A DNA stretch of 64,000 nucleotides, from the NCBI RefSeq assembly GCF_041381155.1, contig NC_091139.1, positions 6,944,383 to 7,008,382 of the forward strand, written 5' to 3'. Made by a program: the position numbers and the translations under genes. Positions 4,201-51,110 of this stretch are shown piece by piece. Positions within the stretch are counted from its first letter, which is position 1. Each line of letters opens with the position of its first letter. The notes below the pieces were generated by a model, which saw only the letters and a program-made list of their open reading frames with translations, had not been told where the DNA came from and made no database searches. Source of the stretch: Argopecten irradians. Lineage: Eukaryota; Mollusca; Bivalvia; Pectinida; Pectinidae.

Positions 4201-7200
4201 TGGGGACAGAGTCCGACTATCACCAGTGTCATCAAGAGGTTTTCACAACTGGTATGTCGGTATGTTCAAGCTACATGGACGCTGCAGTGGACTGTTTCGG
4301 TGGAATGGCGACTCCAACGCCAGGAGGACCTCATCTCAGTGAGTACTTCGGCCACCTATTTTAGGTTTACTTGGTTGTTTTAAAGAGACAAATAATAGAC
4401 ATCATTATTTCTTTTATAAACTTTTAAGAACTTCCAAAGTTATTTATAGATAAGGGACACCTGATATCAATCTTATTAAATATGATCATCTAAAATTTCT
4501 TGTTTATTATTGTTGATGATTTGCAAAAATTATATGCCATTTGTGTTTATTGAAGCATGGATTTTCGTTTCCTTTTAAATAGTGACCCTGACAGTTGATA
4601 TTGACGGTCGAGTTTTGGCCATGTCAAATATGATGATGGGAACTATTTGTGCTGACCACTGGAATGATGCATCAGCTAGTGTTGTCTGTCGCTCGTTAGG
4701 TCTATCTAACTCTGGAAGTTCCATGAGTTTACCAACGTCGTCAATGTATCCTTCTCGGTCACTCATGACACTGGAATGTATGGGGACAGAGTCCGACTAT
4801 CACCAGTGTCATCAAGAGGTTTTCACAACTGGTATGTCGGTATGTTCAAGCTACATGGACGCTGCAGTGGACTGTTTCGGTGGAATGGCGACTCCAACGC
4901 CAGGAGGACCTCATCTCAGTGAGTACTTTGGCCACTTATTTTAGGTTTAGTTGGTTGTTTTAAAGAGACAATTAATAGATATCATTAATTCTTTTATAAA
5001 CTTTTACGAACTTCCATAGTTATATATAGATATGGGACACCTGATATCAATCTTATTAAATATCATCATCAAAAACTACTTGTTTATTATCGTTGATGAT
5101 TTGCAAGAATTGCATGCCACTTGTGTTTATTGAAGCATGGATTTTCCTTTCCTTTCAAACAGTGACCCTGACAGTTGATCCTGACGGTCGAGTTTTGGCC
5201 ATGTCAAATATGATGATGGGAACTATTTGTGCTGACCACTGGAATGATGCATCAGCTAGTGTTGTCTGTCGCTCGTTAGGTCTATCTAACTCTGGAAGTT
5301 CCATGAGTTTACCAACGTCGTCAATGTATCCTTCTCGGTCACTCATGACACTGGAATGTATGGGGACAGAGTCCGACTATCACCAGTGTCATCAAGAGGT
5401 TTTCACAACTGGTATGTCGGTATGTTCAAGCTACATGGACGCTGCAGTGGACTGTTTCGGTGGAATGGCGACTCCAACGCCAGGAGGACCTCATCTCAGT
5501 GAGTACTTTGGCCACTTATTTTAGGTTTAGTTGGTTGTTTTAAAGAGACAATTAATAGATATCATTAATTATTTCATAAACTTTTACGAACTTCCATAGT
5601 TATATATAGATATGGGACACCTGATATCAATCTTATTAAATATCATCATCAAAAACTACTTGTTTATTATCGTTGATGATTTGCAAGAATTGTATGCCAT
5701 TTGTGTTACATTAAGCATGGATTTTATTTTCCTTTCAAACAGTGACCCTGACAGTTGATCCTGACGGTCGAGTTTTGGCCATGTCAAATATGATGATGGG
5801 AACTATTTGTGCTGACCACTGGAATGATGCATCAGCTAGTGTTGTCTGTCGCTCGTTAGGTCTATCTAACTCTGGAAGTTCCATGAGTTTACCAACGTCG
5901 TCAATGTATCCCTCTCGGTCACTCATGACACTGGAATGTATGGGGACAGAGTCCGACTATCACCAGTGTCATCAAGAGGTTTTCACAACTGGTATGTCGG
6001 TATGTTCAAGCTACATGGACGCTGCAGTGGACTGTTTCGGTGGAATGGCGACTCCAACGCCAGGAGGACCTCATTCCAGTGAGTACTTCGGCCACTTATT
6101 TTAAGTTTACTTGTTTTTTTTAAGAGCCAAATAATAGACATAATTATTTCTTTTATAAACTTTTACGAACAACTTCCAAAGTTATTTATAAATATGGGAC
6201 ACCTGATATCAATCTTATTAAATATGATCATCAAAAATTTCTTGTTTATTATCGTTGATGGTTTGCAAGAATTGCATGCCACTTTGTTGTGTTTATTGAA
6301 GCATGGATTTTCCTTTTCTTTAAAACAGTGACCCTGACAGTTGATCCTGACGGTCGAGTTTTGGCCATGTCAAATATGATGATGGGAACTATTTGTGCTG
6401 ACCACTGGGAATGATGCATCAGCTAGTGTTGTCTGTCGCTCGTTAGGTCTATCTAACTCTGGAAGTTCCATGAGTTTACCAACGTCGTCAATGTATCCTT
6501 CTCGGTCACTCATGACACTGGAATGTAAGGGGACAGAGTCCGACTATCACCAGTGTCATCAAGAGGTTTTCACAACTGGTATGTCGGTATGTTCAAGCTA
6601 CATGGACGCTGCAGTGGACTGTTTCGGTGGAATGGCGACTCCAACGCCAGGAGGACCTCATCCCAGTGAGTACTTTGGCCACCTTATTTTAGGTTTAGTT
6701 GGTTGTTTTAAAGAGACAAATAATAGACATCATTATTTCTTTTATAAACTTTTACGAACTTCCAAAGTTATTTATAGATAAGGGACACCTGATATCAATC
6801 TTATTAAATATGATCATCAAAAACTACTTGTTTATTATCGTTGATGGTTTGCAAGAATTGCATGCCACTTGTGTTTATTGAAGCATGGATTTTCCTTTCC
6901 TTTCAAACAGTGAATCTGACAGTTGATCCTGACGGTCGAGTTTTGGCCATGTCAAATATGATGATGGGAACTATTTGTGCTGACCACTGGAATGATGCAT
7001 CAGCTAGTGTTGTCTGTCGCTCGTTAGGTCTATCTAACTCTGGAAGTTCCATGAGTTTACCAACGTCGTCAATGTATCCTTCTCGGTCACTCATGACACT
7101 GGAATGTATGGGGACAGAGTCCGACTATCACCAGTGTCATCAAGAGGTTTTCACAACTGGTATGTCGGTATGTTCAAGCTACATGGACGCTGCAGTGGAC

Positions 7201-9546
7201 TGTTTCGGTGGAATGGCGACTCCAACGCCAGGAGGACCTCATCTCAGTGAGTACTTTGGCCACTTATTTTAGGTTTAGTTGGTTGTTTTAAAGAGACAAA
7301 ATAATAGATATCATTAATTCTTTTATAAACTTTTACGAACTTCCATAGTTATATATAGATATGGGACACCTGATATCAATCTTATTAAATATGATCATCA
7401 AAAACTACTTGTTTATTATCGTTGATGGTTTGCAAGAATTGCATGCCACTTGTGTTTATTGAAGCATGGATTTTCCTTTCCTTTCAAACAGTGAATCTGA
7501 CAGTTGATCCTGACGGTCGAGTTTTGGCCATGTCAAATATGATGATGGGAACTATTTGTGCTGACCACTGGAATGATGCATCAGCTAGTGTTGTCTGTCG
7601 CTCGTTAGGTCTATCTAACTCTGGAAGTTCCATGAGTTTACCAACGTCGTCAATGTATCCCTCTCGGTCACTCATGACACTGGAATGTAAGGGGACAGAG
7701 TCCGACTATCACCAGTGTCATCAAGAGGTTTTCACAACTGGTATGTCGGTATGTTCAAGCTACATGGACGCTGCAGTGGACTGTTTCGGTGGAATGGCGA
7801 CTCCAACGCCAGGAGGACCTCATCTCAGTGAGTACTTCGGCCACTTATTTTAGGTTTAGTTGGTTGTTTTAAAGAGACAAATAATAGACATCATTATTTC
7901 TTTTATAAACTTTTAAGAACTTTCAAAGTTATTTATAGATAAGGGACACCTGATATCAATCTTATTAAATATGATCATCAAAACTATTTGTTTATTATTG
8001 TTGATGGTTTGCAAAAATTATATGCCATTTGTGTTTATTGAAGCATGGATTTTATTTTCCTTTCAAACAGTGACCCTGACAGTTGATCCTGACGGTCGAG
8101 TTTTGGCCATGTCAAATATGATGATGGGAACTATTTGTGCTGACCACTGGAATGATGCATCAGCTAGTGTTGTCTGTCGCTCGTTAGGTCTATCTAACTC
8201 TGGAAGTTCCATGAGTTTACCAACGTCGTCAATGTATCCTTCTCGGTCACTCATGACACTGGAATGTATGGGGACAGAGTCCGACTATCACCAGTGTCAT
8301 CAAGAGGTTTTCACAACTGGTATGTCGGTATGTTCAAGCTACATGGACGCTGCAGTGGACTGTTTCGGTGGAATGGCGACTCCAACGCCAGGAGGACCTC
8401 ATCTCAGTGAGTACTTTGGCCACTTATTTTAGGTTTAGTTGGTTGTTTTAAAAAGACAAATAATAGACATAATTATTTCTTTTATAAACTTTTACGAACA
8501 ACTTCCAAAGTTATTTATAAATATGGGACACCTGATATCAATCTTATTAAATATGATCATCAAAAAAATTCTTGTTTATTATTGTTGATGATTTGCAAAA
8601 ATTATATGCCATTTGTGTTTATTGAAGCATGGATTTTCCTTTTTTTTAAATAGTGACCCTGACAGTTGATATTGACGGTCGAGTTTTGGCCATGTCAAAT
8701 ATGATGATGGGAACTATTTGTGCTGACCACTGGAATGATGCATCAGCTAGTGTTGTCTGTCGCTCGTTAGGTCTATCTAACTCTGGAAGTTCCATGAGTT
8801 TACCAACGTCGTCAATGTATCCTTCTCGGTCACTCATGACACTGGAATGTATGGGGACAGAGTCCGACTATCACCAGTGTCATCAAGAGGTTTTCACAAC
8901 TGGTATGTCGGTATGTTCAAGCTACATGGACGCTGCAGTGGACTGTTTCGGTGGAATGGCGACTCCAACGCCAGGAGGACCTCATTCCAGTGAGTACTTC
9001 GGCCACTTATTTTAAGTTTACTTGTTTTTTTAAGAGCCAAATAATAGACATAATTATTTCTTTTATAAACTTTTACGAACAACTTCCAAAGTTATTTATA
9101 AATATGGGACACCTGATATCAATCTTATTAAATATGATCATCAAAAAATTTCTTGTTTATTATCGTTGATGGTTTGCAAGAATTGCATGCCACTTGTGTT
9201 TATTGAAGCATGGATTTTCCTTTCCTTTCAAACAGTGAATCTGACAGTTGATCCTGACGGTCGAGTTTTGGCCATGTCAAATATGATGATGGGAACTATT
9301 TGTGCTGACCACTGGAATGATGCATCAGCTAGTGTTGTCTGTCGCTCGTTAGGTCTATCTAACTCTGGAAGTTCCATGAGTTTACCAACGTCGTCAATGT
9401 ATCCCTCTCGGTCACTCATGACACTGGAATGTAAGGGGACAGAGTCCGACTATCACCAGTGTCATCAAGAGGTTTTCACAACTCCCTTCTGGTATGTCGG
9501 TATGTTCAAGCTACATGGACGCTGCAGTGGACTGTTTCTTTTATAA
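1203..9546 (+). CDS. Secreted multi-domain SRCR (scavenger receptor cysteine-rich) protein, 13 exons
   Basis: Proposed coding exons: 1203-1305, 2044-2406, 3420-3758, 4003-4338, 4583-4918, 5163-5498, 5743-6078, 6329-6665, 6911-7246, 7492-7827, 8071-8406, 8654-8989, 9236-9546. Exon 1 gives a 34-residue leader with a hydrophobic run (MGIFVTLIFVSL) typical of a signal peptide. Each later exon is one SRCR domain: GTICADHWND, VVCRSLGL, LEC.G.E..YHQC, and DAAVDC, with six cysteines (unit residues 23, 36, 66, 76, 88, 98), the group A count. All internal borders are phase 1 with GT/AG ends, so whole exons can be gained, lost or skipped in frame. Exon 8 has an extra G and reads into a stop; skipping it gives 1267 residues by my count. 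No transmembrane segment or other domain follows, so a soluble pattern-recognition or mucosal protein is likely (family knowledge plus inference). Domain copy number may depend on assembly quality. Confidence 0.85.
2044..2406 (+). CDS. Exon 2 of the SRCR gene: divergent first SRCR domain
   Basis: Reads from the split glycine codon after the leader into VEPDGRVLITSN and an SRCR fold with GTICGDFWND, AVVCRNVG, CTGKEVDCNQC and DAGVDCFGGMATPTP. It has the same six cysteines and the same linker start as the array units but is clearly different along its length. It was therefore not homogenised with them. Acceptor AG is at 2042-2043 and donor GT at 2407, both phase 1. Confidence 0.85.
2438..2790. 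mobile_element. MITE-like element copy in SRCR intron 2 (same family as 36535-37014)
   Basis: Starts with GGAAACAACCAACTGAAT about 30 bases after the splice donor and runs co-linear with the element in NXPE intron 1. Shared blocks include ACCTTCGAAATG/ACCTTTGAATGG, TATCAATTTTGATAA, TTCAAAATGACT and GAGCTGAAAGACCC. The right terminal repeat seen in the other copy is not recognisable here, so this copy is worn or truncated. Confidence 0.6.
2899..3419. other. Remainder of SRCR intron 2: poly-A tract, repeat fragment and short duplication
   Basis: Holds a 20-base A tract near 2899-2920, an inverted fragment of the nested-inverted-repeat MITE near 3050-3200 (TTTTCATACGAAATCCGACT and CGACGTTGCG blocks, opposite in strand to 16880-17110), and a perfect 39-bp tandem duplication at 3211-3288. 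The acceptor at 3418-3419 ends it. Confidence 0.5.
3211..3288. repeat. Tandem duplication, two 39-bp copies
   Basis: TACGCCAGTATAAAAAACAG and the following 19 bases occur twice in direct succession, starting at 3211 and 3250. The copies look identical, so the duplication is recent. Confidence 0.85.
3420..9540 (+). repeat. Tandem array of eleven ~580-bp exon-plus-intron SRCR units
   Basis: Exon starts fall at 3420, 4003, 4583, 5163, 5743, 6329, 6911, 7492, 8071, 8654 and 9236, a period of 579-586 bases. Exons of 336 bases are almost identical, and the ~244-base introns differ by small indels. In the first unit (3420) only the part from about 3469 on matches the rest; the first ~50 bases are different. 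Marker changes are shared in mosaic patterns: ATTGAC for CCTGAC in units at 4003, 4583 and 8654; AATCTG for CCCTG in 6911, 7492 and 9236; and AAG for ATG after LEC in 6329, 7492 and 9236. This is what unequal crossing-over or gene conversion leaves. Confidence 0.9.
6329..6665 (+). other. SRCR exon 8 with a one-base frameshift
   Basis: This copy is 337 bases where its neighbours are 336. The sequence ACCACTGGGAATG has one G more than ACCACTGGAATG, so the spliced frame reads His-Trp-Glu and then TGA. Both splice sites are intact (AG at 6327-6328, GTGAGT at 6666). Because both borders are phase 1, skipping the exon would keep the rest of the protein in frame. It may be a true null unit or a base-call error. 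Confidence 0.8.
9236..9546 (+). CDS. Terminal SRCR exon, truncated, with stop codon
   Basis: Follows the unit consensus to TTCACAACT (ends 9483), then has seven extra bases (CCCTTCT, 9484-9490) that shift the frame to a new 23-residue tail ending at TAA 9544-9546. The last two consensus cysteines of the domain are lost. Sequence similarity to the exon stops at GACTGTTTC and continues with TTTTATAAA, which matches the unit's intron, so a deletion joined exon to intron through the shared TTTC. Confidence 0.75.
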
Positions 9547-9551: not shown

Positions 9552-10398
9552 TATACTTCCAGAGATGCATCTTTAAACAAAGATGTAAAAATAGAAATTT
9601 TTAAAACTCAGGCCTACGGATAAAAATATGTATAACACTTAAACAGTTTTCACTATGACAAAAAGGGAGAGCAAAAGATATGAGACCAAACAACTTATTA
9701 AATCCAATACAGTATATATAACGAAATAATGCCACTAACGAGATTTATCTTTCCTTAATACAGTACATTTGTTTATTGTATTTCTGTCTCTTCGGAGTCT
9801 AAGTGGAGCTTGTTATAATATTCCAAGCATAAACTGTAAAAGACTTTGTATACCGACAAAGTGTTGAATATCAGATAGGAGAAATTTGCCGGATTATCCA
9901 GATTTGGTCTAAGAACGACCCGCTCGCGTCGAACCCGCTCGCTCGAACAGGGTCTTATGACACGAAAAATGGCGGTTGATGACAAAGAAACCATAGAAGA
10001 CCGAAGAGAGCACAGAACAGAGAGAGGTAGACAATGCAAATCCGGTAACCAGGCCTATAAAATAGACCGATTGAAGATCCCTCAAATCACGTATCAATTC
10101 ATCCTACAAACCATATTATATGATTGACCAATTAAAAAAAACTAGCATGGTTAGGTGCCTGAACAACGTTGCAATAAGATCCAATCCAACATTTGCATAC
10201 AACAGTGAGGAAGGATAATAAAAGAAAGGTATATCACAATTAAGAATGTAGCTTTATGTTCTGAAAGTTAAATGATAATCAGAACATCCACGTACTAAAG
10301 GGATTATGTCCTGAGAAAACGTAGATGAAAATTTTCTTTGATTTTTTTTGTTCGTTTTAGTCATTGCGCTGTCCCTTGGCCTTAAAAAATTTTCCGTA
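9552..10398. other. Intergenic; short CpG-rich patch with a weak 52-codon ORF
   Basis: Around 9910-9960 the DNA is unusually CpG-rich for this window (repeats of CGCTCG). Directly after it, an ATG at 9969 in good context (AAAATGGCG) opens a 52-codon frame to TGA 10127 that starts MAVDDKETIEDRREHRTER. The R-G codon there carries a GTAGAC donor-like site. It could be a promoter with a first exon, or chance. No downstream partner exon was found. Confidence 0.2.
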
Positions 10399-10681
10399 GA
10401 CCCAGGTGAAGTAAAATTGTATGAAGTTGGATCAGGCATACAGCAATAAATATCCATTCTTTTAAAAACGAAATTTGCGTTTTAATCAACAGTTGACAAT
10501 CGAGAAATGTGATCCTCAAATATTGCTGTTACGACGTCCCCAGACCCAGGTGAAGTAAAATTGTTTGAAGTTGGATCAGGCATACAGCAATAATATCATT
10601 CTTTTAAAAACGAAATTTGCGTTTTAATCAACAGTTGACAATCGAGAAATATGATCCTCAAATATTGCTGTCACGACGTCA
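10399..10681. repeat. Tandem duplication of a ~144-bp segment
   Basis: The block beginning GACCCAGGTGAAGTAAAATT at 10399 is repeated from 10543, with a few substitutions and two small deletions (for example AATAAATATCC versus AATAATATC). Nothing coding is seen in either copy. Confidence 0.85.
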
Positions 10682-12100: not shown

Positions 12101-12222
12101 ATTATGGGAAAGGGGAAGTGAACCAATATTGGGTACACTTGAAGAATTTCCTGCCTTTGTGTGGTATGTTTACATGTCACCTTAAGGTCAGTACACCTTA
12201 CCTAGCTATTGTCGCGGGTCAA

Positions 12223-12230
12223 TATAAATA
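12223..12230 (+). promoter_or_regulatory. TATA box of the 12455 gene
   Basis: TATAAATA is followed 25-30 bases later by TCATTAC (12247-12253), an initiator-like sequence. Transcription would start near 12249, before both candidate ATGs (12260 and 12455). Confidence 0.5.
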
Positions 12231-12454
12231 CAGGCCCCAGCCACTCTCATTACAAACTGATGCCACTAGGAGCCGTCAGCACTTCACTGACTTCATTCCA
12301 TTCACTACCGATTGATTTTCCAAAGTCGGAGGTCCAGTATATCCTCCTCATTATAAGTGTTGTATACTTAATATACCGAAAACCAATCCAAGTTAAAGAC
12401 ATTTCAAGAAAACTAGCTGTTATTAAGATATTTTTATACCGACACAAAGAAACT

Positions 12455-12826
12455 ATGGATAAACGCACACAGTTTGCTGGAAAAGGACGAAGAGAGTCTT
12501 ATCTTATCAACGACCCACTGCTGGAATTCGAACACAAGAAATTCCAAAATGCTTTAGATGATCAGCTGGTATTCGAACAAGATGACAGTGACGAGATTAA
12601 CAGACTAACATTTAGGACATTGGAGAATATCACTCGTGGTGACCTCCCAAAAGGGTCAAATCTTTTCCAGAAGGTGATGGGTGACTTGCATACAAACGGG
12701 AAAGACCGTGGGGAGAGAAGATGGAACCCCAGAACAAAGTCAATGAGTGGAAATCTACACACCGTGAGGTTTGAGAAACAAACGTTCAAGCGAAGCCACA
12801 CTTCCATGAACAACCATCGGTCTTGA
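12455..12826 (+). CDS. Small single-exon gene, LPKGS-motif family member 1
   Basis: 123 residues from ATG 12455; an in-frame ATG at 12260 would give 188 residues with a hydrophobic run (YILLIISVVYLIY). I prefer 12455 because the paralogue starts lie at a similar distance from the conserved core, but 12260 is the first ATG after the predicted start of transcription. Visible blocks: FEHKKFQNALDDQLVF (about residues 28-43), an acidic stretch, GDLPKGSNLFQKVMGDL (about 65-81), and HTVRFEKQTFKRSH near the C-terminus. All three blocks recur in the gene at 24332, two of them in the gene at 18467. The product is charged, has no signal peptide from 12455, and is probably nuclear or cytosolic. The family is not one I recognise; function unknown. 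Confidence 0.65.
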   Translation: MDKRTQFAGKGRRESYLINDPLLEFEHKKFQNALDDQLVFEQDDSDEINRLTFRTLENITRGDLPKGSNLFQKVMGDLHTNGKDRGERRWNPRTKSMSGNLHTVRFEKQTFKRSHTSMNNHRS

Positions 12827-13870
12827 GAATTTAACCAGAGCTTCCATCATGTTTTTGTGTGGACTTTGCCAAAAAGTATTCCACAATCATCGTTTGAAGC
12901 GATCTTGAGAGATTTTCCTACAGTTTCTTACAACAGGACATTTCAATGGATGCAGAAAAACGGACGATGATAGCGACAGGTTCGTGACCTCCACCTGTGA
13001 TATTAACTCCTACCATCTGGACCCAGCTGTTCCTAAATTTATAAGAATGGTCATGTGTGTAATTCAGTATTGTAAAAGTGATGGACACTGACATGTTGCT
13101 GTAAGCAGATAAAGCAGGTTAAGCCATAATATGTAGTGAAAGATGGCTTTTACTGATATAGTTAATGTTCGTGTACAAATTGACATTTCAATTATTTATT
13201 TTCAGGTGCTAAATAATGTCATCCTGTCACATACTTTACGACTACACATACTTACATTTCTTTAGCATTTGATGGTTCATTATACGTGTATTTGATTGTG
13301 ATCGTGATTATTATATTTGATTATACAAGAGAACTACTTTCTACATGATCTGTCCAACAATGTATGCCTATGTACATGTATGGGTACGATGTACTGACAA
13401 TTTAATATTATGAATGGGTAAAATGCATTTACAATTTAAATTTTAGACCGATTATATAGCCAGATATAAATGTACATAGGTAGACAATTATGTGATGTCG
13501 TTTGCTGTATATAGCAAAATTGACAGTAGTGGTTTGAGCGAAATCAAGCATAATAATTTAGTTATGTAGGCGTATAAATATACATACCTTTCCTCGACAA
13601 TTTATTATGTACTCTATTGAAATGTAAACCGGTTATTAATTTAAAAGTGTTCATGATAAGATATCAATGGTGCTACAATGATATTCTAAATGAGGAAAGC
13701 TAATGATAGAAAAAAGATGAATACAAACTGCATGATAGGTATACAGTCTTAAAACTAGAATTCCAATGTTTTGTTCACAAAGAATACGTCGTGAAGAAAT
13801 TAATACAAACCTATATACCGGACGCCGAATCTGGTTTGCATTGATCGATGAATAAAGCTCTGCCTGTTGA
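12827..13870 (+). other. Probable 3' UTR of the 12455 gene
   Basis: No further reading frame. An AATAAA at 13851-13856 would give a 3' UTR of about 1 kb; another (CCAATAAAAC) lies near 14390. Long AT-rich 3' UTRs fit an unstable, induced transcript, but this is inference. Confidence 0.4.
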
Positions 13871-15136
13871 ATTGGTATATCCGGGTGTGATTTTTTTATG
13901 GTTACTCGATATTGAGCTTCAATAAAATTTTAGATACGCGTAAAGAAATGATATTTGATTTATGGACTATGAGGTAAAGAATTATTGAAACTGATCTTCC
14001 GAGAGCTGAACCTGTTTCACTGGTTAATTATTGAAAGTTGATACGATATGTTTTTGTTTATTAAGGTGATAGAACAATTTTAATATTAGAAATTGGATGA
14101 TGATTTATCTCATTTTATCAAATCATCATCACAATCAGTTTTTATACGTTTTCTCTCCAGTTGTCTTTATTTATACATTATATTGCCATGTATATCGACC
14201 TAGTTGTTTGTGATATTACTTGTGATATTCAAGCTTACATATAATTATGCTGTATGCAAATTTAGACTGCAGAGATTACAACATGTGCAATACTATAAAA
14301 TTAGTGGTACTTTCTAATCAAATTTATTTGATATACATTGTACACGTTCTAATATCTTTACATCTTGTAAGTATTTAGTTGGTGCGCCAATAAAACTATT
14401 TCGCAATCAAATTCTGAATTGTTTTTGTTTTACTTTAGCTGAGTTAGGATTCAACATTGCGCAATTATAAAACCTGTGCTATGATATTTTGTGGGTTGTA
14501 GAAGGAACTCATCCAATCTCACGTCATTTGTTACGGGAATCTACTAGTATTTTATAGTAATTTAGGTAAGACAATCATACCCAAAAATAAATAAAAGTGA
14601 TTAAGTTCTTTGTACAATCTAGACAATGTCATATTAAAACTGAAGTCTCTGTGTGCAAAAACAGATGAGACATGTAATTTAGACCTTTCATGTACATCAA
14701 TAGAATCAAATAACGGTACACTGTGGTTGAATGTATGACTTTGAAATTGGGCGTCGTTCTCTACAGAAACTTCAAGGACCATGATTAGTCAGTTATCTTC
14801 TTATAAAACATCTTTAGTTTTGATATGACATTGTCAAGAATTGATATTACGATAGGGCTAACATTAGTCATCAGTTTATCATTTACTATCCACTGCAAAC
14901 CGCTTTATGTTCGCGTACTGTATAACATGGAATTTCCGTTGGTTTTTACCTTCGTGGTTGAGTGGTTTGAAAGGATTTTGTGTGTAGAAATTTTCGTGGT
15001 CCCACAGCTCCCACAAAAACAATGAAAGTTTCTTCAGAAGGAATACACAGGTCCGCGATCAAGGGATTTTACTGACAATAGGGTATTCAGAAATAGTCAA
15101 CCCTATCTATAAAGATCAACTAAGAGACGAAGGAAA
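13871..15136. other. Intergenic, includes a degenerate dispersed repeat
   Basis: No gene. The stretch at about 14905-15010 (TACTGTATAACATGGAATTT, then TTCGTGG blocks) resembles 16505-16600, which has GTACTACTGTATAACATGAA and the same TTCGTGG/TAGAAAT series. The short frames over both places (66 and 74 codons) are therefore repeat-derived. Confidence 0.45.
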
Positions 15137-15300
15137 AATATTTATTTATTTATTTATTTCCAATTCACCAGACCAGAAGGCTGACTTACAGAATGGATAA
15201 CAAATTAATACATTCAACATAAATTTAAAATATCACAGATAAGTACTAGGTAAAAGAGAAACAGAAGTAAACACCCAGTTACAAACTAATGTAAGATTGT
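15137..15300 (-). mobile_element. Possible 3' end of a LINE-type retroposon (minus strand)
   Basis: Read on the minus strand, the sequence ends in CCAATTCACC-reversed DNA followed by a run of AAAT units (plus strand TTTATTTATTTATTTATTT at 15138-15158). A short tandem tail of this kind is typical of CR1/L2-like LINE 3' ends. No reverse transcriptase reading frame is present, so it would be a 5'-truncated copy. Class is tentative. Confidence 0.3.
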
Positions 15301-16879
15301 TTTTAAACGGATTTTGAATGGCACAATGGTCAAACAAAACAGTCAGACGCAGAGTTTATACCATAAACGAGATTGCATTCGGTTTAACATACCGTACTTT
15401 CTCACATAAACTCTATTACGCTGGCAATAAAACTGATTCGAACGACTTGGACGTAAATTACGACTAGGAACTTAAATACACAATTGGTTGACTAATACAG
15501 CCTCAATAGCCAAAAATTTATACACAGGCCAAATTGAGGTTAATAAAGGCCTTTAAGGGCCTCAAAATATGATTTTATTATGTAGATGGTCTTTATACAA
15601 AGGTGTTCGGTATGCCAGGATCAGTGTATACAATCATTTGCGAAACACTTGAATTTTGCAAGTGATCTCGTTCGCGAAATTACGCGAAAATTCGTATCTC
15701 GTGAAAATAAAGTGTTCTGTAGTTCTTCTAAATAATGTATATTGATTAACGTAATTCATTACGTCAATGAAACAAATAGTGGTAAAACGTGCTATGGTCC
15801 GCGTGGGGTGCTGATGTAATTCTTGTTTAATTTCGTCATCTCATTATTATGGTCGATAGAAGTAAAACAAACACGTAATACAATCTAAGGATATATTATG
15901 AAATATTGAGAGCCTTGGTTTATATCAATACTGTACACATAAGCGGGCACGACGCGCGTCACTACATTGAACCAACATTTAGTCTAATATTTGAACCTTA
16001 TGACATTTTGAAAAAGAATGACCAATTTCAAGGCTGTTCCCTTATTTGTTGTTATTACAGCTTTTCTTGGCATGTCGACACAGCGAAAAAGACAAATTCT
16101 GACAACAATGTGTCAAAAATTAAGTAGAACTCTTATCGATATGGACATGCGACCATGCACATAGCTACCTAAAGTTATTGGAAATGTTCCGTACAATGAT
16201 GAGCCCCCAATGTACACGGAATGGGTATCAGATGACATAACGATCTTCACTTGGCGACCTCTCTCATTGTTTACAAAGCGAACGAGTGGGCGAGGGAAAT
16301 CTAGTCAACAACTAGGAAGTACTGATAATATACCAAGATAATTGTCTGACAACTGTCTTTGTTCATACACATGCCATATTACTATATATATTACTATTAT
16401 TGATATACCCCCTAGTATTACTTATTAATATTCTACTTTTCAATACAGTAATTACTGAGTTATCCCACATATCCATGTTATATCTGTCATTGCTTTTGAT
16501 CGTCTCGGTACTACTGTATAACATGAATTATTCGTGTGTACTTTCTTTCATGGTTTTGAGATTTGATATAATTTCGTGGATAGAAATATTCCTGGTAAGC
16601 CGACGGAACAATAGTGACAATTAAATTAAAAACAGAATTCGTTGTTTTTATATTTGTGGTCTCGCAATAAAAACGTCAACAACTTAAGTTTCTGTGCTAC
16701 GAACATTTCATGTAATGCAGTATTACTTCACCTATATTTTGCGGATTCTTAATTTCGCGCTTTCAATAAACCATACATAAACTCGCAGCAAATTAATTTC
16801 GCAAGTTCTGGTTAAGAGGTTTTACCCGGGTTCTTACAAAAACAAAAAAAAAAAAAAAAAAATGAAAACAAAAATTCCA
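15301..16879. other. Intergenic, degenerate GCGAAAT-type repeats
   Basis: Carries dispersed GCGAAA/TTCGCG blocks at about 15640-15710 and 16735-16810 and a TTAATAAAGGCC segment near 15536 that resembles the element in KRI1 intron 3. An A tract lies at about 16842-16862. No gene is supported. Confidence 0.4.
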
Positions 16880-17110
16880 TAACCCGCCTATAATTCATTT
16901 CAGACTACTTGTTTACATACTATACAATTGATTTCCCAATGGATTATTTTTGTCCTTAATCTATACGCCATGTCGCCGTCTGCGATGTGACGTCATGTTA
17001 ACGTCGAGTTTTCGCGCCATTCTCGGATTTTTTTCCCATACTAGTATGAATATAAAGTATACGCCTATCAGAAAGTCGGATATAGTATGAAAACAAATAA
17101 AAATTAATTA
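16880..17110. mobile_element. Partial copy of the nested-inverted-repeat MITE (family of 21203-21708)
   Basis: Shares with 21385-21540 the run TCAGACTACTTG, ATTGATTTTCC-like, GGATTATTTTT, TGTGACGTCATG, AACGTCG and TTTTCGCGCC, and with 21725-21770 the run CAGAAAGTCG, GTATGAAAACAAATA. Outer terminal arms are missing or unrecognisable. Contains the octamer TGACGTCA at 16988-16995. Confidence 0.7.
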
Positions 17111-18466
17111 TTTGTAATTGTGTTCGTCACGATTACAACTTTCTCGATATCCTGCTTACCTCATTATTCGTCAAATCGCACGTGAAAATAATCCAAGATA
17201 TCTGATTGGTACGTCATCAACTTCATTGTAAACATTTACGACTGTAAATATGCCATTATGCTCAAATGACGTTAAATGAGACTCTCACTAGTAGATATAA
17301 ATATATGTTGTAGCAATACAATATATGACAATATTAGCATTTTGAAAGAAAAGATACAAGGGGGCGTAATATCATATTTTGTAAAATGGTAAACCAAATA
17401 AGGCCAGAAATTATACGAGAATCTAGTTATCCTAGAGTAATTGATATTAGGAGGATTTTGACCAAACATCGTCAAAATATGTATCTAAATATATATTCAT
17501 AATAAAATCAGGGCATTTATTTTAGTTCTTATCTAATATTTCTTTGTAAAGTAACCAATAACAATACAACTTTTAGACATACCGTATATCTGATTATTTT
17601 TGCGAAGATACTTTTCGCGATTTCGCCGGATATTTCTATGATTGCGAAAATTTGATCAGAGAAATATTGAAAAATGGTTGTATCACACAGAATATATCTT
17701 GTACGCCAGATAGCGACAAATACAGATGCTTAAAACTTCAATTTTCTCGTTTATCATTTTGGCGTGTGTAAATAACAAGCTATATAGTAATAGTGTAAGT
17801 GTAGAAATCTAGCAGCTATAAGATATGTTCACCTATACATAGATATGAACCTTAATCACACAAAGGCCAGCTATCGTTCCGAAAAGTGCAAGGGTGGTAC
17901 GCATAGAATGAAAGCTTGTTATCGGGTGCTTTATGCATGGGCGGTATATCAACTTGGTATGTATGTTTACTTAAGACATCACGGATAACGATAATTTTGA
18001 CCTTAAACATGGGTTTTAGAGCGATCTATTTCGTCTCATGCCTGTTAATAATAAGGTATTATGGACATTCAGCTGGCATGTTGTGATAGCCCGTTACCGG
18101 TTTATTCGCATCAATAGAGCACCTGTCCAACGTTCGCCTTCCCTGATGACAGACCTTTAACCATTAATTTAGTTCGTATTTACATTACACCTTAGATTAA
18201 ACACAAATGTGAATACAATCTATTGAACTGTTAATCAGATAGTGGCCAAATTCGTAAATATTATCTTTAGAATTCAACCTAGTCGGCCACAACAAAATCG
18301 GAAAGTCAGCCGGGCTGGTACAGTATTGCTGAAATGTCGCCAAATTCATGAAGAAATATTCAAAAATATGGTTTAGGCCGACTTGTATGATGCTGGATGT
18401 TGTAATTTACTTTGGACTTTGAAAAGTATTCTAACCATTTTTAGTGATATCGATCGTTTTAGCAAA
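17111..18466. other. Intergenic, upstream of the 18467 gene
   Basis: Mostly featureless, with a TTCGCGATTTCG patch near 17612. I did not find a clear TATA box at a fitting distance from 18467. An acceptor-like TTTTTAG at about 18443 and another TTTTAG at 18461 precede the ATG, so a spliced 5' UTR is possible. Confidence 0.35.
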
Positions 18467-18922
18467 ATGACTTTCAGGCCTAGAGGATATACCTATGTCC
18501 GGGAAATGGACATTGCTATAGAACTTGGTTTCCAAAAGTTAGAGACAGAAACGACACTCATCAAGGATAGAGTTTTACAGCGAAACCACGAACAATTTCA
18601 AAAAGCTATTTTAGAGCAAATCTTCTTCACGGAGCAGTTCTGTTTTGTTGATCAAAACGACTGGATGAAAATTGAGACAAAAAGTAAAGGAAATCTCCCA
18701 AGAGGTTCCGAAACACTGCACCAAGTGATCGAAGACTTGTGTTTCCTACGTCATTCAGATAGTACTGAATCAGATGCTAATCGGGATACCTCGGACATAA
18801 GTGATGATGTTTCCTTATCCATAGGGGATGGCAGTTCATCGGAGTGTGAATCCGGTCCCAATTCGGATACCGGAAGTCAAAATTCAGAAAATGTTGACGA
18901 TATTGATGACGACGCCAGTTAA
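18467..18922 (+). CDS. Small single-exon gene, LPKGS-motif family member 2, acidic serine-rich tail
   Basis: 151 residues from ATG 18467 (MTFRPRGYTYVREMD); the frame is open back to an ATG at 18383. Core blocks match the 12455 product: NHEQFQKAILEQIFF against EHKKFQNALDDQLVF, and KGNLPRGSETLHQVIEDL against RGDLPKGSNLFQKVMGDL. After residue ~95 it has a serine/aspartate-rich acidic tail (for example SDISDD, SENVDDIDDD) instead of the TVRF block. Acidic Ser/Asp tails often carry CK2 sites or activation domains, but no function can be assigned. A possible poly-A signal ATTAAA is at 19212-19217. Paralogy to its neighbours is supported by motif order and by the even spacing of the three genes. Confidence 0.65.
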   Translation: MTFRPRGYTYVREMDIAIELGFQKLETETTLIKDRVLQRNHEQFQKAILEQIFFTEQFCFVDQNDWMKIETKSKGNLPRGSETLHQVIEDLCFLRHSDSTESDANRDTSDISDDVSLSIGDGSSSECESGPNSDTGSQNSENVDDIDDDAS

Positions 18923-19440
18923 AGGTGTATTAACATATGTAATTAATATATGTTAGAGAATGTAAACAAAAACAATGTGATTATCAATGCATCTAGAAAA
19001 ATATAAATAGAAATAACATTTGACAAGTTAAATGGAAGAACTAGCGCTTTACAAATGCTTGAAATTAATGTACGGTTTGCTCAATTATTGAATGTCCTAA
19101 GTTTAAGATTATTAAAATATTGAAATGGAACAGAGGCAGTTGAAGTATTAACTTACAATGTATTAAAGAAAATAGATATCATCTTCAGTCATCGCGTGAT
19201 ATGGGGAGCCGATTAAATATTCATTTAAGACAGGTTTATGAAGAAAAATATGGAATTGTTACAACAGCATATACATGTTCTGTAATTGTTATTATCCGTA
19301 CTCTAATGTCATTACATTATATTTTTATATAGAGATATTTTCACACGATGCTTATATTTTTTTCATTCTTATCAAAGCGAAACACACATATGGTTTAAGC
19401 TAAATCAGGTCTAATAGAATCTGACATGGGTCTGTGAAGT

Positions 19441-19545
19441 GGACAGGGATATCTCAACCCGAGTGAAAGATTTTGCCGGTCAACCCGAAACCCGAGGCTT
19501 GCCGAGGGTTGACGGCCAAAATCTTTTTCATCGCGCCATTATCGC
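19441..19545. mobile_element. Hairpin end of a palindromic repeat element
   Basis: TGAAAGATTTTGCCGGTCAA (from 19464) pairs with TTGACGGCCAAAATCTTTTT before 19530, around the core AACCCGAGGCTTGCCGAGGG. The same core and the GGATAGGGATAT lead occur in the element at 29988-30468, so they are related. Two TGACGTCA octamers follow at 19573 and 19624. Confidence 0.65.
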
Positions 19546-21202
19546 AGGAACGTCGTTTTGCGTCAAAATTGATGACGTCATCTACAATGCGCGGCGCAGT
19601 AACGCCAACGCCACATGTATTGGTGACGTCACGTTATTGTCTAGCGCGTGTTAGCTGTCTTACACCCCCCCACCCCCCCTCTGTGTAAGATAGAGTTATC
19701 TTTTCCCTAGCAACCGCGGAATATCTCTGTGAAGTATGGGAGAAATAGTTTTCTGTTTGGACGTAACTATAAATAATCCATAACCACGTGACGGTGCCAT
19801 TAATACCATTATCAACATTAACATTGTTCAATTTTCAATTTCCAAAACAATTATGATTTTCAATGTATTAATTACCTACTCTTGTTATTTGTTAAGAAAG
19901 GAAAAATAATCAGAATACCTTTTCAAGGAAATTAGTATCATCCGCTGACTATTATAAAATGTACATATAGACTGAATTATGTAATCCAAATTATTTTCGT
20001 GGCGTCTAAATCTGTTTTAATTCCGAATCTTTTTTCACGACAATTTAATTTACCGATTCAGAGTACTTCTGTACCTATATGCTTGACACATTTTACAAAT
20101 ATTTATTCCATTGAGTTTTAAATTAGCCTGCGATAAACGTGAAATTTAATGACACACAAGTTTATTAACAGTATGTCATTTTGTTAGTCATGTCAGTTCC
20201 TAATCAAATAATACAACGTTGCAACTCATAAGAAGATGACTTCATACCACAGTCTCCCTAAAATGCAGATGCACTTCATGCACGCAACACATCTCAGACA
20301 TGGGAGGCCGTCCTTGCATGACCCTGGCTGTTAACCAAATCAAATGACTCCATGCTGAAGAAAGTGTTAAATGGTATATATGTAATGTCCGCTGATGTAC
20401 AACTTTATCAATTCTGTTACATTTTTATGCGCAAAGACATTATTGTATATTTGACATAACCGATGAGTGGGTCATAGGTCACAGAGCAAAGAAAGGGACA
20501 GAAGGCATCGACCTTTTATGGTCATTATATGTGTCCAAATCAATAGACCGGACACATCAGAGAAAGGGGCCGGCGACAACGACCTGCTATAGTCACTGGT
20601 GACTGCACACTCTTACATCAACTGAAGGGACGGATATGGTGTGGTCATCAATGTTTCTACGTTCATAGACCGATCATACTATAGAAATTGACGAAATTCG
20701 GAAACCAGTTACTGTTTATTACGCTTACTCCTACATCGATTTATTTGTTCAGTTCAATACACGAGAAAGCATTGAACTACCCATGAACCGTTACTTACAG
20801 CTCGTAGCTATGCATTTGTATATATCGTAATTTTAAATGTTTAACCACCAATTCAAAATACGTTACTGGCACCGTTAGGAACACATTACAATTAAAAAGA
20901 AATCATAAAAAGGTTAAAAGTCCTGCGAACCGGTGATACGTATAGGTCGAGTGGGTGTAAGTGTCTCATTTTATCATTAGTGAATGTGATATCCTTGTTC
21001 CTAAACATTTCTATTCGATGAAGTCGGGGCATCATTTTGAGGGCAAAAAAAAAAAAAGAAAAAAAAACAGAAAAAAACAACATACGTCTATTTAGGGTTA
21101 CTCGACGTACCGACCCTATTTTTTTGCAAATGTAACCCTTAATCAAACATTTTGTTTGGTCCGATATCAGACACGTGAGGCTATCACCTCGGTTTTATTA
21201 TT
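19546..21202. other. Intergenic with C-tract and SINE-tail fragment
   Basis: Contains a C-rich tract near 19663-19680 and, at about 20298-20345, GGGAGGCCGTCCTTGCATGA followed by CCCTGGCTGTTAACC, which I take as a SINE 3' fragment. The reversed motif GGACGGCCTCCCATGAACAT appears at about 63494. A-rich low complexity at 21045-21080. No gene. Confidence 0.4.
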
Positions 21203-21708
21203 TAAGTATTGATGTCACTATTTATTTAAAACTTCAACGGGGTATGAAAGAAATTTTGTTCGCAACTTTTTGTGAGATTCCATTACGCTAATTCATAGTT
21301 TCCTAACAAAATGTCTTTCATAACCCGTTAAAGTTATAAAATACTTACATCAATGCTTATAATTGATTTTTCAGACTACTTGATAACATTAAATACGTTT
21401 ACACGTACGATTCCATTGATTTTCCAAGGGATTATTTTTTCTAAATCAATATACGCAACGTCAGCATCTCTACTGTGACGTCATGATAACGTCGGATTTT
21501 CGCGCCGTTCTCGGATTTTTTCTGTATGGTAGTATAGTTAATTTTCATTTGTTTTCATATTAAATCCATGTTTAAACGTAATCTGTATTATCAAGGAGTC
21601 TGAAAAATTAATTATAAGCATTGATGTAAATAAAGTATTTTGCAAACTTTGCAAAAAAGTTTCTTTTATACCCCAATGAAGTTAAAAATAGTGACATAAA
21701 TGCTTAAA
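21203..21708. mobile_element. MITE with nested inverted repeats (~500 bp)
   Basis: The outer left arm TAAGTATTGATGTCACTATT..GGGGTATGAAAGAAA (21203-21254) is matched, reversed, by TTTCTTTTATACCCCAATGA..TAGTGACATAAATGCTTA (21660-21705). An inner pair, ACTTACATCAATGCTTATAA (21344) and TTATAAGCATTGATGTAAAT (21612), forms a second inverted repeat. No reading frame lies between, so it is non-autonomous. Holds TGACGTCA at 21476. Superfamily not determined. Confidence 0.75.
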
Positions 21709-24073
21709 TGAAGATAAAGAATCTGAAAATCAGAAAGTCGAATTTGGTATGAAAACAAATAGAGATTAATTATAGATTCAAAACTATTCCATCAAATGCT
21801 GCTTAGGTTTCTTACAAAGAGTCATGTGGTTAACTGACATAGGTCAGTATACAGCTCTGAGGTTAAGTGGTATTTGGTTTGTGTATCATATCTGGTCAGT
21901 AACCTATTGTAAATACTACTGTTTATTGACAATGATTAGGTATATATCGACCTCCTTACAATAGTGTTTACTTGTTGTGATGACATTTAAAGTTATATTT
22001 TATCGTTCTTGTTGCTGCTGAAATGTCAAACATATTGAGTCTAACGCTTTTATCGTTTAGTTTCATAATTCTAGTACAAACATTCAGCAAACTTGAAACT
22101 TTACTGGTAGTCTATCTTTATGTTTATGACAATATATCATAGGTTTTAGATATCATAGATCACATAATTGGTGAGATGGAATAAACTCTCAATCACAAAC
22201 CTTAATATAGGTTTTATGATATGGACTCGCTTTCCCAAAATAAACCTTAATAATCTTCAGTGAACGTACAACTTTTCGTGACCTCATCGGGTCACGTTAA
22301 ATAGTGAATTGACTTTGTGAAATAGGTCATATTGATAATTTGGTATAAAGATGTTTGATGTTTATACATTTGTTTCTCAAACGGATTATATTACTAGAAC
22401 ATATACACCAAACCACGCAAACCCTAAACTTTTCTTATACTTTGATATTAATTTACTTAGGAGATGTATGTTTTCTTTGATTTAATAAGGAGTTCTAGAA
22501 AAATATGTAAAGATATATAAATTGTTCTATATTTATGAGAACAACAACCAAACTCAGACTAGTCTACAAAGACTTAAACGCTAACAACAACAGTAATAGT
22601 AAGCTAACTAATGTCCCGCTACCTCTCATTTGAGACCATAACAGCCAAATTACATGTTATTTTGGACATACATTATCATGTACGACCAAATATGCTCGCC
22701 AATCATCGATACATTACAATTTCCTGTATGATCATTTTGACTTTTCATTTTTTTTTTATTTAAAAATCCTATACAAGAACCTTTAATCAATCAGATAATA
22801 TATCAAAATTGACCACTTAGAAGCCTCCTTGGGTGGAGGAGGGGGAGGGGTTGAGTTATAATAAAACCCTATAACAACTAAATCAATGTTATTTTGATAA
22901 ACTATCAATACAATGTGTAATGGTTTACCTTACGTGATGGTGGTTTTTCAGTACAAGCATAAATTCACTGTTTAGACTAGTATGTATCGTACAAAAGAAC
23001 TTTGCTTCATCAATCATAGTGCAGCTGAAATAAATTTTAATTCGTGACTTGTGCTTCATTTCGTTCGGAAAATTGTAAAATGCACTCAATCATATAGTGT
23101 ATGAAAAATCACCGGAATTCCCAGGCTGACTGGGATCGATATAGATGGAAAACAATTGTCTAGAAAAATGTAAACCGTATAAAGACATAATATGCTTAGA
23201 CATTTCAATAACGTAAAGTGACTAGTCAATGTCATATAAATGGATATCGTATTTCCAAATTTGGATATTTCAATCAAACTGTCGGTGATTATCATATTTC
23301 TATCCCGCTTTACTATTAGCTTATATATCTATCGGTTCGATAGAAATCTAGAGAAAATTTTAATTACGTTTTAAATTGAAATCTATTTAAATATGATCTA
23401 CGTGAGAATTGCTAATAATTTAAGCATTGAAATGTCATCAACTATATACGTCACTGTTGTATAATAAAAATAAATGAATTGATAAAAGCTATTCATCCAA
23501 AATCTACGATACATGAAGTGCAATTGTCACAATTTAATTTTCCTAATCACATGTGAATTCTTGCATAAAACCCATAAATATTAATTTTTAATTTGATGTA
23601 TTACACTCAAAACTGTATTTGAAAATAATAATGACTACATGATTGGCGCGAAGTTGACAATTTAGTAGCATAATTGATTCGTAAGATTCAACGCGGACAC
23701 ATAAAGGTTTGGTGTAACATTACCTTCGGCATAAAGCCTTCGGATATATCAAAGCGAATGTGTAGTCATGTTATATTAAAACACCAAGGTCCTTCACCTT
23801 TTGCATGTTTACGACATATTTTGCCATCTTTAGTACACACATATATTGAATTTGTTCAGAACGGGAAGCCAGGCGCGACATGTAGTAATTGCTCTCTAAT
23901 CCCGAGCTCTTTCTTCTCGACTGTTTGTTTGTCAAACGTATTAACAATAAATGATATTCAATAGATTACAGTCAATTTAAAAGAAAAAGAAAATCTGTTT
24001 TGACACTTTTAAATACTGTATAGATACAAGGGATAATTGACTTGTTATCGATATATACCATCTTGTAAACAGG
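21709..24073. other. Intergenic, no gene seen
   Basis: AT-rich; a purine-rich GGAGGAGGGGGAGGGG patch at about 22834-22851. The 96-codon plus-strand frame at 23674-23964 matches nothing I know and lies in a stretch without splice or promoter signals. Confidence 0.4.
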
Positions 24074-24081
24074 TATATAAG
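24074..24081 (+). promoter_or_regulatory. TATA box of the 24332 gene
   Basis: TATATAAG followed by a relatively GC-rich stretch (GTGCGTTCGCTTCGGG). Start of transcription expected near 24103-24110, giving a 5' UTR of about 225 bases, similar to the ~205 bases of the 12455 gene. Confidence 0.5.
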
Positions 24082-24331
24082 CCTGTGCGTTCGCTTCGGG
24101 TACACATATAGTAGAGAGTCTTGCTGGAGAGTACACACAACTGAACGGTACAGATAACCTCAACGCCGTGATACACTCACAAGGACAATTCATCATATAA
24201 TTGTATAAGGTGAAATTGCGCTAGTTTAGAAACATTCATCAAAACCTGTGCTCATATATCGTCAACAAAGACGTAAAGCAGTGTTTGAGAACGTTTTAAA
24301 GCTATATCTGGATTAATTAAGAGAAGGGTTC

Positions 24332-24721
24332 ATGATGATCATGGACGGTTCCAATGTCTATGACTACCAGTCTGCCATCCTTCCTAGAAGCAGACCTCGT
24401 GCAGACTCGGAGTCTAATTACTCCGATTGCAGTGACCGCTCAAGAGACTCAACAGACTCTACGGATACCATAAAAAGCATATCCAGAGACAAGTTGCCGA
24501 AAGGATCAGATATTTTCCAGAAAGTGTTAGATGAACTGATGCCGAAACCAGTGGAGGAAATTCCTATAAAGGTAGACCGACCCAAAAACGCAATGTCAAA
24601 ATCTACGAGAGCCAAGCAGAAGGCGTCGTTGCGAGCTGTGGCATGTACTATCAGATTCAAGAAAATGTTTGAAGCATCACACCAACAAAAAACAAACGTT
24701 TCATCACATGAAAAAGTATAG
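24332..24721 (+). CDS. Small single-exon gene, LPKGS-motif family member 3
   Basis: 129 residues from ATG 24332 (further in-frame ATGs at 24335 and 24341 are equally possible). Blocks: YDYQSAILPRSRP near the start, matching the FQ.A(L/I) block of the other two; a serine/aspartate stretch (SDCSDRSRDSTDSTD); RDKLPKGSDIFQKVLDEL (about residues 51-68); a basic region rich in K and R; and CTIRFKKMFEASH near the end, matching HTVRFEKQTFKRSH of the 12455 gene. An AATAAA at 25276-25281 is a suitable 3' end. The order of motifs, intronless structure and TATA promoter make this the clearest sister of the 12455 gene. Function unknown; a small inducible nuclear regulator is a guess. Confidence 0.7.
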   Translation: MMIMDGSNVYDYQSAILPRSRPRADSESNYSDCSDRSRDSTDSTDTIKSISRDKLPKGSDIFQKVLDELMPKPVEEIPIKVDRPKNAMSKSTRAKQKASLRAVACTIRFKKMFEASHQQKTNVSSHEKV

Positions 24722-28600: not shown

Positions 28601-29477
28601 ATTGTGACCATGCATTCATTGTACATTATAGAATATTTTAATGATGATTTATGTGGCATTGTTATTTATTAATTACCAAATGCTGTGTTTACATTTATTT
28701 CGTCGGAAGAATAGCACTACAGTGCTTATATTGCATCTTGCAACGTTAGATAATATTTCTTGAATCTTGTTATTATTTAGATGTAAATAACTCCCAACAA
28801 CCTTATTTAACTGTTGGTATCCAAAGGGTCGACTTGGGCATGTTATGAAGATAATACTGTAAAAGGCGTTTCAGAAAACATGTCCCGACTTAAAACTAGA
28901 AATAAATCATAATTGCACAAATTAAGTTATTTTTATAAGCTTATGATACCAATATTTGTTGGAGTACAATCATTTACAGCTAAGATTTCACAATAAAACA
29001 TTATCACTTAAAATAATGATCTACTCGTTTTTACCAAGGTATATTCGATCACACAGATTTACAGTATTGTTATTTTGGTATTGTTAATATAACTATTTTA
29101 ACAATAGAACCCTATCAGAGGTCATTTAAGCAAATGGATGTACCTAAATGCTACACAGAAACAAAACAATTGTTTTTCTTACATCAATATTACAGTTGGA
29201 ATTTTTGCAATAAATTCTCGAAGAATAAAGGAGATCTTTCGGAAGGTTATTGACAAGTGTCCAGATGATCATTTCAGAAATGTTTGAAATTACATAACTC
29301 GGTTTTATATAACATACAACTGCATGTGTTAAACTACTCTTTTGAATACATATAAATGTATAATCAAAGTCTATGGATATCCAGAATGGTAGATGTTATG
29401 TCTGGATTTTTGGTTTGGGTTTAATAAGCATTACAATCGACACATGTTTTCTGAAATTACACCCTGTATTCTGTTAA
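25613..29477. other. Intergenic, no gene seen
   Basis: Very AT-rich. The only structure noticed is a perfect 29-bp tandem duplication at 27153-27210 (TCCCATATGCTTTGGCATCA...). All reading frames are short and hydrophobic or low-complexity. Confidence 0.45.
27153..27210. repeat. Tandem duplication, two 29-bp copies
   Basis: CCCATATGCTTTGGCATCAA and the following bases occur twice with no difference, starting at 27154 and 27183. Confidence 0.85.
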
Positions 29478-29637
29478 ATTCTATTCCATAACTATAGCAT
29501 GTGTCGCTGTATTTAAATTCTAGTCCATAACTAGAGAATGTGTCGCAGTATTTAAATTCTAATCCATAACTAGAGAATGTGTCACAGTATTTAAACTCTA
29601 GTCCATAACTAGAGAATGTGTCGCAGTATTTAAATTC
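29478..29637. repeat. 39-bp tandem repeat, four copies
   Basis: TCCATAACTAGAGAATGTGT and CGCAGTATTTAAATTCTA repeat with CCATAAC starts at 29486, 29525, 29564 and 29603, an exact period of 39. The first copy is the most diverged. Confidence 0.9.
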
Positions 29638-29987: not shown

Positions 29988-30468
29988 ACACGTGTAATAA
30001 TGGCTGGTCTAGGGCAATATACTCATGTCGCCTGAGGCTGTATTGCATGGCTACCCATGCATTAAAGCTTCGTGACGTCATGGCGTCAACAAATCTCTAT
30101 TTCCTCGGTAAAATTTTAACATTTTTTCACAAAATTGACTGGTTGTACTATAAAAGATGCAAGCAACGGAATTTGTATTGAAAATATCACGTAATTTTTC
30201 ATGTTTGGAAATTGACTTCCAGTCGTGGATTTCTTCGAATTTATTTCAAAATGGCGGGATGTTATAGTTGTAAAATTGCAATAAAACGTCAAGGTATGAA
30301 AGAAAAATACTCTTTCATTAGTGAATATGAAGGATAGGGATATTCTACCCTCGGGATCACAAAATGTTGCAAAACCCTCGGCAAGCCTCGGGTTTTACTA
30401 CATTTTGTGACCCTAGGGTAGAATATCCCTATCCTTCATATCCTCATATGAAAGAGTCTTATAATCTA
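29988..30468. mobile_element. Palindrome-ended dispersed element, copy 1 (~480 bp)
   Basis: Matches 59325-59745 in reverse orientation over its length (CAATATACTCATGTCGCC, TGGCTACCCATG, CGTGACGTCAT, AAAATGGCGGGATGTTATAG, ATTGCAATAAAA, AGGTATGAAAGAAAAATACT). The right end is a ~160-base palindrome (30306-30468): ATGAAGGATAGGGATATTCT pairs with AGAATATCCCTATCCTTCAT around the core CCCTCGGCAAGCCTCGGG. No reading frame, so non-autonomous; superfamily undetermined. Confidence 0.75.

Positions 30469-41101: not shown

Positions 41102-51110
<10,009 letters not shown>

Follow-up and report, generated by a model that had tools for sequence, protein, structure and literature searches.

Three short open frames that follow one another on one strand of a molluscan genome raise the question of whether they form a gene family and, if so, of what kind. 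They lie in a 64,000-nucleotide stretch of the Argopecten irradians genome (846 Mb), bases 6944383-7008382 of contig C6 (NC_091139.1), hereafter the window, whose own numbering is used unless a contig is named. A preliminary description had proposed that the frames are genes of an unrecognised family, and we found them at the positions it gave, all on the plus strand, with start-to-start distances of 6012 and 5865 bases. Gene 1 (12455..12826) encodes 123 residues with an isoelectric point (pI) of 9.7 and carries two conserved segments, blocks 1 and 2, as well as a T(V/I)RF tail. Gene 2 (18467..18922) encodes 151 residues from its first ATG (pI 4.3), and gene 3 (24332..24721) 129 residues from its first ATG (pI 9.4), with no convincing block 1. 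The comparisons below indicate that these genes and a fourth, gene 4, almost certainly form a real family.

Relatedness was assessed by Smith-Waterman alignment of the proteins and of shuffled sequences. Genes 1 and 2 scored 90 (shuffle mean 30.8, maximum 58) and genes 1 and 3 scored 82 (shuffle mean 26.9, maximum 55), neither value being reached by any of 3000 shuffles; the score of 47 for genes 2 and 3 was reached by 39 of 3000. Among the 591 stop-to-stop frames of 40 or more codons in the window, the genes included, the top matches of each gene after itself were its two companions; the one exception was an antisense frame of 41 codons inside gene 2, which scored 49 against gene 2, above the 47 of gene 3. 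When the whole genome was searched with gene 1, gene 2 was found at an expectation value (E) of 0.0047, and a search with a 67-residue core of gene 1 gave E 0.01 for gene 2 and E 0.93 for gene 3. That such weak genome-wide matches land 6 and 12 kb from the query would itself be strong evidence of kinship. A profile of genes 1, 2 and 4 recovered gene 3 with 24 bits (E 1.3e-5) among 8154 frames, which come from 41 partly overlapping sources, and the next non-family frame stood at E 0.15. The kinship proposed for the three genes was thus borne out, by the two pairs that exceeded all shuffles and by the recovery of gene 3 with a profile that lacked it.

Gene 4 was found in the genome search with gene 1 (E 1.1e-11) on the minus strand of the same contig (C6:776424-776690), 6.2 Mb from the window cluster, and encodes 89 residues. 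It is identical to gene 1 at 31 of 67 residues, and the nucleotide identity of the two at codon positions 1, 2 and 3 is 64, 66 and 37%; the same codon is used for 11 of the 31 identical residues. Conservation of positions 1 and 2 beside a near-random position 3 indicates that the frames code for protein and have been under protein-level selection after an old duplication. The family had also been described as evolving fast, which does not follow, since with third positions near random the divergence may simply be old. The score of gene 1 with gene 4 was 155, against 90 and 82 with its window neighbours, and this closer tie to the distant copy makes a simple recent tandem origin of the cluster doubtful. 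No repeated 6-kb unit was seen within the 900-base flanks of the four genes, to which the plus-strand blastn comparison was confined. It gave five matches at E<=1, the best of them (genes 1 and 3, 30 bases, 83%, E 0.039) within coding block 2 and the remaining four at E 0.51-0.53. Searches of the genome with whole proteins and pieces, whose match counts are lower bounds, returned no fifth member, and a profile scan that took in 284 kb surrounding the cluster, a further 10 kb at gene 4 and the short loci found the four genes only, the best others standing at E 0.15. Set aside as candidate members were a region adjoining a frame that resembles C1q by eye (E 0.54, with stops inside), a frame that resembles a coiled coil by eye (E 1.2 only) and a further stretch of the genome (E 0.25, containing a stop).

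The sole block present in all four genes is block 2, LPxGSxx(F/L)(Q/H)x(V/I)(M/I/L)x(D/E). It had been described as an LP(K/R)GS block in the window genes, and was confirmed on the plus strand in all three: as LPKGSNLFQKVMGDL in gene 1 (12644..12688, residues 64-78), LPRGSETLHQVIEDL in gene 2 (18695..18739, residues 77-91) and LPKGSDIFQKVLDEL in gene 3 (24494..24538, residues 55-69). Gene 4 reads LPAGS at this place. Pieces of 27-28 residues around block 2, picked after the alignment had been seen, scored above all 2000 shuffles in all six pairs. The 14-residue pattern, itself derived from the four genes, had 19 matches in the 8154 frames, all of them copies of these genes; LPxGS alone was present in 10 frames outside the family. 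The hydrophobic moment of block 2 was reached by 224, 19, 70 and 173 of 5000 shuffles for genes 1 to 4, tests that are not independent because the genes are related.

AlphaFold2 models of genes 1 and 3, built with the three window proteins, place a low-confidence predicted helix on block 2 in both proteins and on block 1 of gene 1. In gene 1 the helices span residues 21-58 and 69-80. The first has a mean predicted local distance difference test score (pLDDT) of 83 over residues 21-30 and 73 over residues 31-40, with lower values beyond, and the second a pLDDT of about 68. Gene 3 was modelled with a helix at residues 60-69 (pLDDT about 76) and, at 114-117, with a turn of four residues whose confidence is very low. 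In both modelled proteins the block 2 helix begins one residue past the Ser of LPxGS.

The segments outside block 2 are less evenly distributed. Block 1, LIxDxxL......FQxA, is present in genes 1, 2 and 4 and covers residues 17-40 of gene 1 (12503..12574, plus strand), where a helix is predicted. N-terminal pieces of pairs 1-2 and 1-4 gave scores reached by none of 2000 shuffles, and pair 2-4 one reached by 47 of 2000. The FQ.A(I/L) block that had been assigned to all three window genes stood for genes 1 and 2 and was not supported for gene 3, whose N-terminal part aligned with genes 1, 2 and 4 at chance level (1957, 287 and 1081 of 2000 shuffles reached the score) and has by eye only YQSAI as a counterpart. 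A T(V/I)RF block had been noted in two genes, and is seen in gene 1 as TVRFEKQTFKRSH (12761..12799, plus strand, residues 103-115) and in gene 3 as TIRFKKMFEASH (24647..24682, plus strand, residues 106-117). The two tails scored 36, a value reached by 17 of 5000 shuffles, which is weak support and no more than suggestive of kinship. When compared by eye with the RVxF motif of protein phosphatase PP1 regulators, in which a basic residue is followed by V/I-x-F, HTVRF of gene 1 is a loose fit and CTIRF of gene 3 lacks the basic residue. The tails are basic in genes 1 and 3, almost absent in gene 4, and acidic in gene 2, where the Ser/Asp-rich tail of the preliminary description was found as a Ser/Asp/Glu-rich end of a protein with low pI.

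On the basis of these features, our preferred reading, held tentatively and at somewhat less than even chances, is that of a small family of apparently single-exon genes that encode intracellular, mostly disordered docking proteins. The proteins, of 89-151 residues, would each carry one invariant docking helix. LPxGS would close a loop and its Ser would cap the helix, whose face F/L-x-x-V/I-M/I/L-x-D/E would bind a conserved partner. A second, upstream helix, LIxDxxL...FQxA, would be present in genes 1, 2 and 4, the tails would lend each paralogue its own reach, and the proteins would serve one partner protein as small adaptors or modulators. This docking-adaptor mechanism is plausible rather than probable. 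Several observations weigh against the docking reading. Confidence of the models is low (mean pLDDT 57 and 57; predicted template-modelling score 0.21 and 0.17; three sequences only), and block 1 is not specially amphipathic, its value being reached by 2311, 497 and 1438 of 5000 shuffles for genes 1, 2 and 4. The bare face F/L-x-x-V/I-M/I/L is common, with 1922 matches in 354184 residues of frames. The unlike tails could mean that the paralogues differ in role, and 5' introns may exist, above all in gene 2, which has no TATA-like word in the 500 bases upstream.

We then asked whether the family is already known. Pfam-A gave no family at E<=10 for genes 1-3, with HMMER filters that discard most matches above about E 0.1, and for gene 4 only Fer2_BFD (E 0.083; 13.7 bits, against a cut-off of 26). 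As a control, six neighbouring frames were scanned in the same way: two SRCR frames and one NXPE4_C frame passed, one neurexophilin frame fell just below the cut-off and two were matchless. NCBIfam returned one family for one of the four members at chance level (E 0.026) and none for gene 1. In the PDB, the best match of gene 1 had E 0.61, gene 3 had none, and the best match of the four-member profile had E 0.22 (genes 2 and 4 were not queried singly); this top profile match was a VPRGS stretch that opens a glutathione transferase and looks by eye like a tag. Pattern searches of viral_contigs (genes 1 and 3) and genome_contigs (gene 1), collections without animal genomes, gave 6, 2 and 31 matches and no relative. 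Membership of the endosulfine, SERTA, IER-type and BH3 groups was rejected on their known motifs and on inspection by eye, Pfam having given no match, and an LPKGS peptide from cuttlefish, an antimicrobial-peptide candidate in PMC7551771, is unrelated by sequence. The statement that the family is unrecognised thus held, as the profile search filed it in no known family and Pfam-A, NCBIfam and the PDB offered no convincing relative. 'Undescribed' is accurate as far as Pfam-A, NCBIfam, the PDB and our literature search extend. In the strongest form of this reading, the genes would be an undescribed animal family, possibly confined to one lineage, whose paralogues have all retained a 15-residue N-capped helix amid the replacement of nearly everything around it; we regard this as possible and on balance unlikely. 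The kept helix could then be a minimal docking module with a conserved partner. An undescribed and functional family would provide a clean test of the way in which small lineage-restricted proteins connect to conserved machinery, with one short helix retained and the remainder at liberty to vary. Small uncharacterised families are numerous in animal genomes, and this is probably one of many undescribed ones; if it is merely another of them, the value of the finding lies in annotation.

These search results have to be weighed against the alternative that the genes belong to a family that already has a name in other animals and have diverged from it, with motifs too short for profile libraries. 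Short disordered proteins are frequently missed by profiles, and the contig collections searched contain no animal genomes, so this alternative is a substantial possibility, if not a probable one. What speaks against it is that four members lack a Pfam-A or NCBIfam match above cut-off and that gene 1, gene 3 and the four-member profile have no PDB relative. Open frames due to chance, or decaying pseudogenes, whose short motif is accidental would be consistent with the low similarity outside the blocks, and length is indecisive, since 24 frames have 120 or more codons, those of 206, 181 and 134 codons among them, and some of the 24 are antisense or low-complexity. The codon-position pattern with gene 4 contradicts this explanation, all four gene frames are free of internal stops, and we consider it highly improbable. 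Equally remote is kinship with, or mimicry of, the mitochondrial fission protein Fis1, by which the proteins would compete at the Fis1/Drp1 interface through LP(K/R)GS. In PMC10356917, Fis1 60-66 (ELLPKGS) and Drp1 49-55 (DLLPRGT) are presented as a shared interaction word, on which the design of the P110 peptide DLLPRGS was based. The order of blocks 1 and 2 is paralleled in human Fis1, where LLKFEKKFQ comes before LLPKGS. With lax gaps, alignment scores against Fis1 were reached by 114, 1595, 503 and 126 of 3000 shuffles for genes 1 to 4, of which those of genes 1 and 4 favour a relationship. With standard gaps, however, the counts were 543, 1700, 275 and 993 of 3000; family profiles ranked Fis1 260th of 1943 and 53rd of 1731 listed sequences, the others being its own shuffles; and BLASTP gave E 2.2 and 0.14, in single short pieces. 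An ordered two-block score was reached by 99 of 3000 shuffles, with the best block 2 window out of the LPKGS register, gene 4 has LPAGS, and the Pfam Fis1_TPR_N model did not match genes 1-3 or gene 4. The Fis1 exon of the same genome, on C14 (Pfam 46.9 bits), reads KFETMYNDQL, against KFEKKFQSEK in human, and so lacks the KKFQ word.

A further proposal, compatible with the adaptor reading, is that the genes are rapidly induced stress or immediate-early regulators, intronless and TATA-driven, with unstable mRNAs and proteins. It finds some support in the single open frames without visible introns and in words around the genes. TATA-like words, all unproven, stand upstream of genes 1, 3 and 4, in gene 1 at 12223..12229 (plus strand, position -232) and in gene 3 at 24074..24080 (plus strand, -267 from an ATG at 24341). 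An unproven FOX-like GTAAACA word lies about 50 bases upstream of the former, on the minus strand (12167-12173), and another at 24065, just upstream of the latter. A CArG-like CCAATATTGG and a TGACGT word lie upstream of gene 1, and TTATTTAWW, resembling an AU-rich element, occurs downstream of genes 1 and 4. The local background is 2.1 TATAWAW (both strands) and 0.17 GTAAACA per 500 bases; TATAWAW is frequent in this A+T-rich DNA, so its presence proves little. Words found in at least three of the four 500-base promoters were not above random stretches, with 22 shared 7-mers against a random mean of 29 and 1 shared 8-mer against 4.8. AP-1, heat-shock element, NF-kB and STAT words were absent from all four promoters, and thirteen upstream motif classes were tried, so that single matches are expected. 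Gene 2 has no TATA-like word, and TTATTTAWW is missing from the 1000 bases downstream of genes 2 and 3. A literature search for intronless immediate-early genes in bivalves found no paper. The 'clear TATA boxes' of the preliminary description were not confirmed by this comparison with background, the 5' untranslated regions of about 200 bases are putative, being read from the TATA-like words, and the layout of quickly induced genes remains a guess with promoter words at chance level. Rapid induction is accordingly a possibility that we consider rather unlikely.

Start codons bear on the ends of the proteins. A start with M-D or M-A-D is possible for all four genes (ATGGAT, ATGGAC or ATGGCGGAC), contexts that the Kozak rule rates as good. 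In genes 2 and 3 it falls on a later ATG than the one first reported: ATGGAC at 18506 (plus strand), which would give gene 2 138 residues and the M-D start of the family, and ATGGAC at 24341 (plus strand), which would give gene 3 126 residues. An in-frame ATG at 12260 would add 65 residues, including a hydrophobic stretch, to gene 1 (12260-12454, plus strand). It is probably not used, because it would follow the transcription start that the TATA-like word predicts by only about 5-10 bases.

The surroundings of the cluster hold other features. Twelve SRCR-like frames occupy 2055-9546 on the plus strand, eleven of them near-identical by eye (3452 to 9546) and one divergent (2055-2465); the two of the twelve that were scanned both match Pfam SRCR (E 2.2e-14 and 1.8e-10). 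The array may have arisen by recent duplication or by gene conversion, or its frames may be the many exons of a single gene. An NXPE-type gene lies at 32764-35077 on the minus strand, in two frames, one matching NXPE4_C (E 2.5e-50) and one reaching 26.2 bits for neurexophilin against a cut-off of 27. A 261-residue Lys-rich frame at 50325-51110 (plus strand) resembles a nucleolar protein by eye and has no Pfam match. Tandem repeats were found at 10398-10680 (142 bases, 2 copies, 96%) and 29474-29637 (39 bases, 4.2 copies, 92%), and the segment downstream of gene 2 at 19439-19690 looks by eye like a dispersed repeat. The peptide word LPSGSQNVAKPSASLG occurs in frames at L021:9288-9374 and at 30300-30407 of the window, about 140 kb apart, with a similar one in L027, which suggests a dispersed repeat.

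We finally compared the family with known systems. Fis1 likewise has LPKGS followed by a helix, and in human an earlier LLKFEKKFQ; it differs in that none of the four genes aligns with it significantly and in that the Fis1 exon of this genome is without the FEKKFQ word. The IER2/IER5 and SERTAD families of small intronless regulators are similar in layout, being short, apparently single-exon and, by eye, without a signal-peptide-like start, and their proteins too are disordered apart from one short conserved helix. In contrast to them, genes 1-3 match no Pfam family at E<=10, and LPxGSxxFQxV is not a motif of theirs. The Phi-x-x-Phi-Phi helices that dock on nuclear receptors and KIX resemble the F/L-x-x-V/I-M/I/L of block 2 in all four genes, a pattern that by itself, with its 1922 matches, is common. 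Lineage-restricted (orphan) families of animals share with these genes the lack of a recognisable domain, the small number of paralogues and the low conservation.

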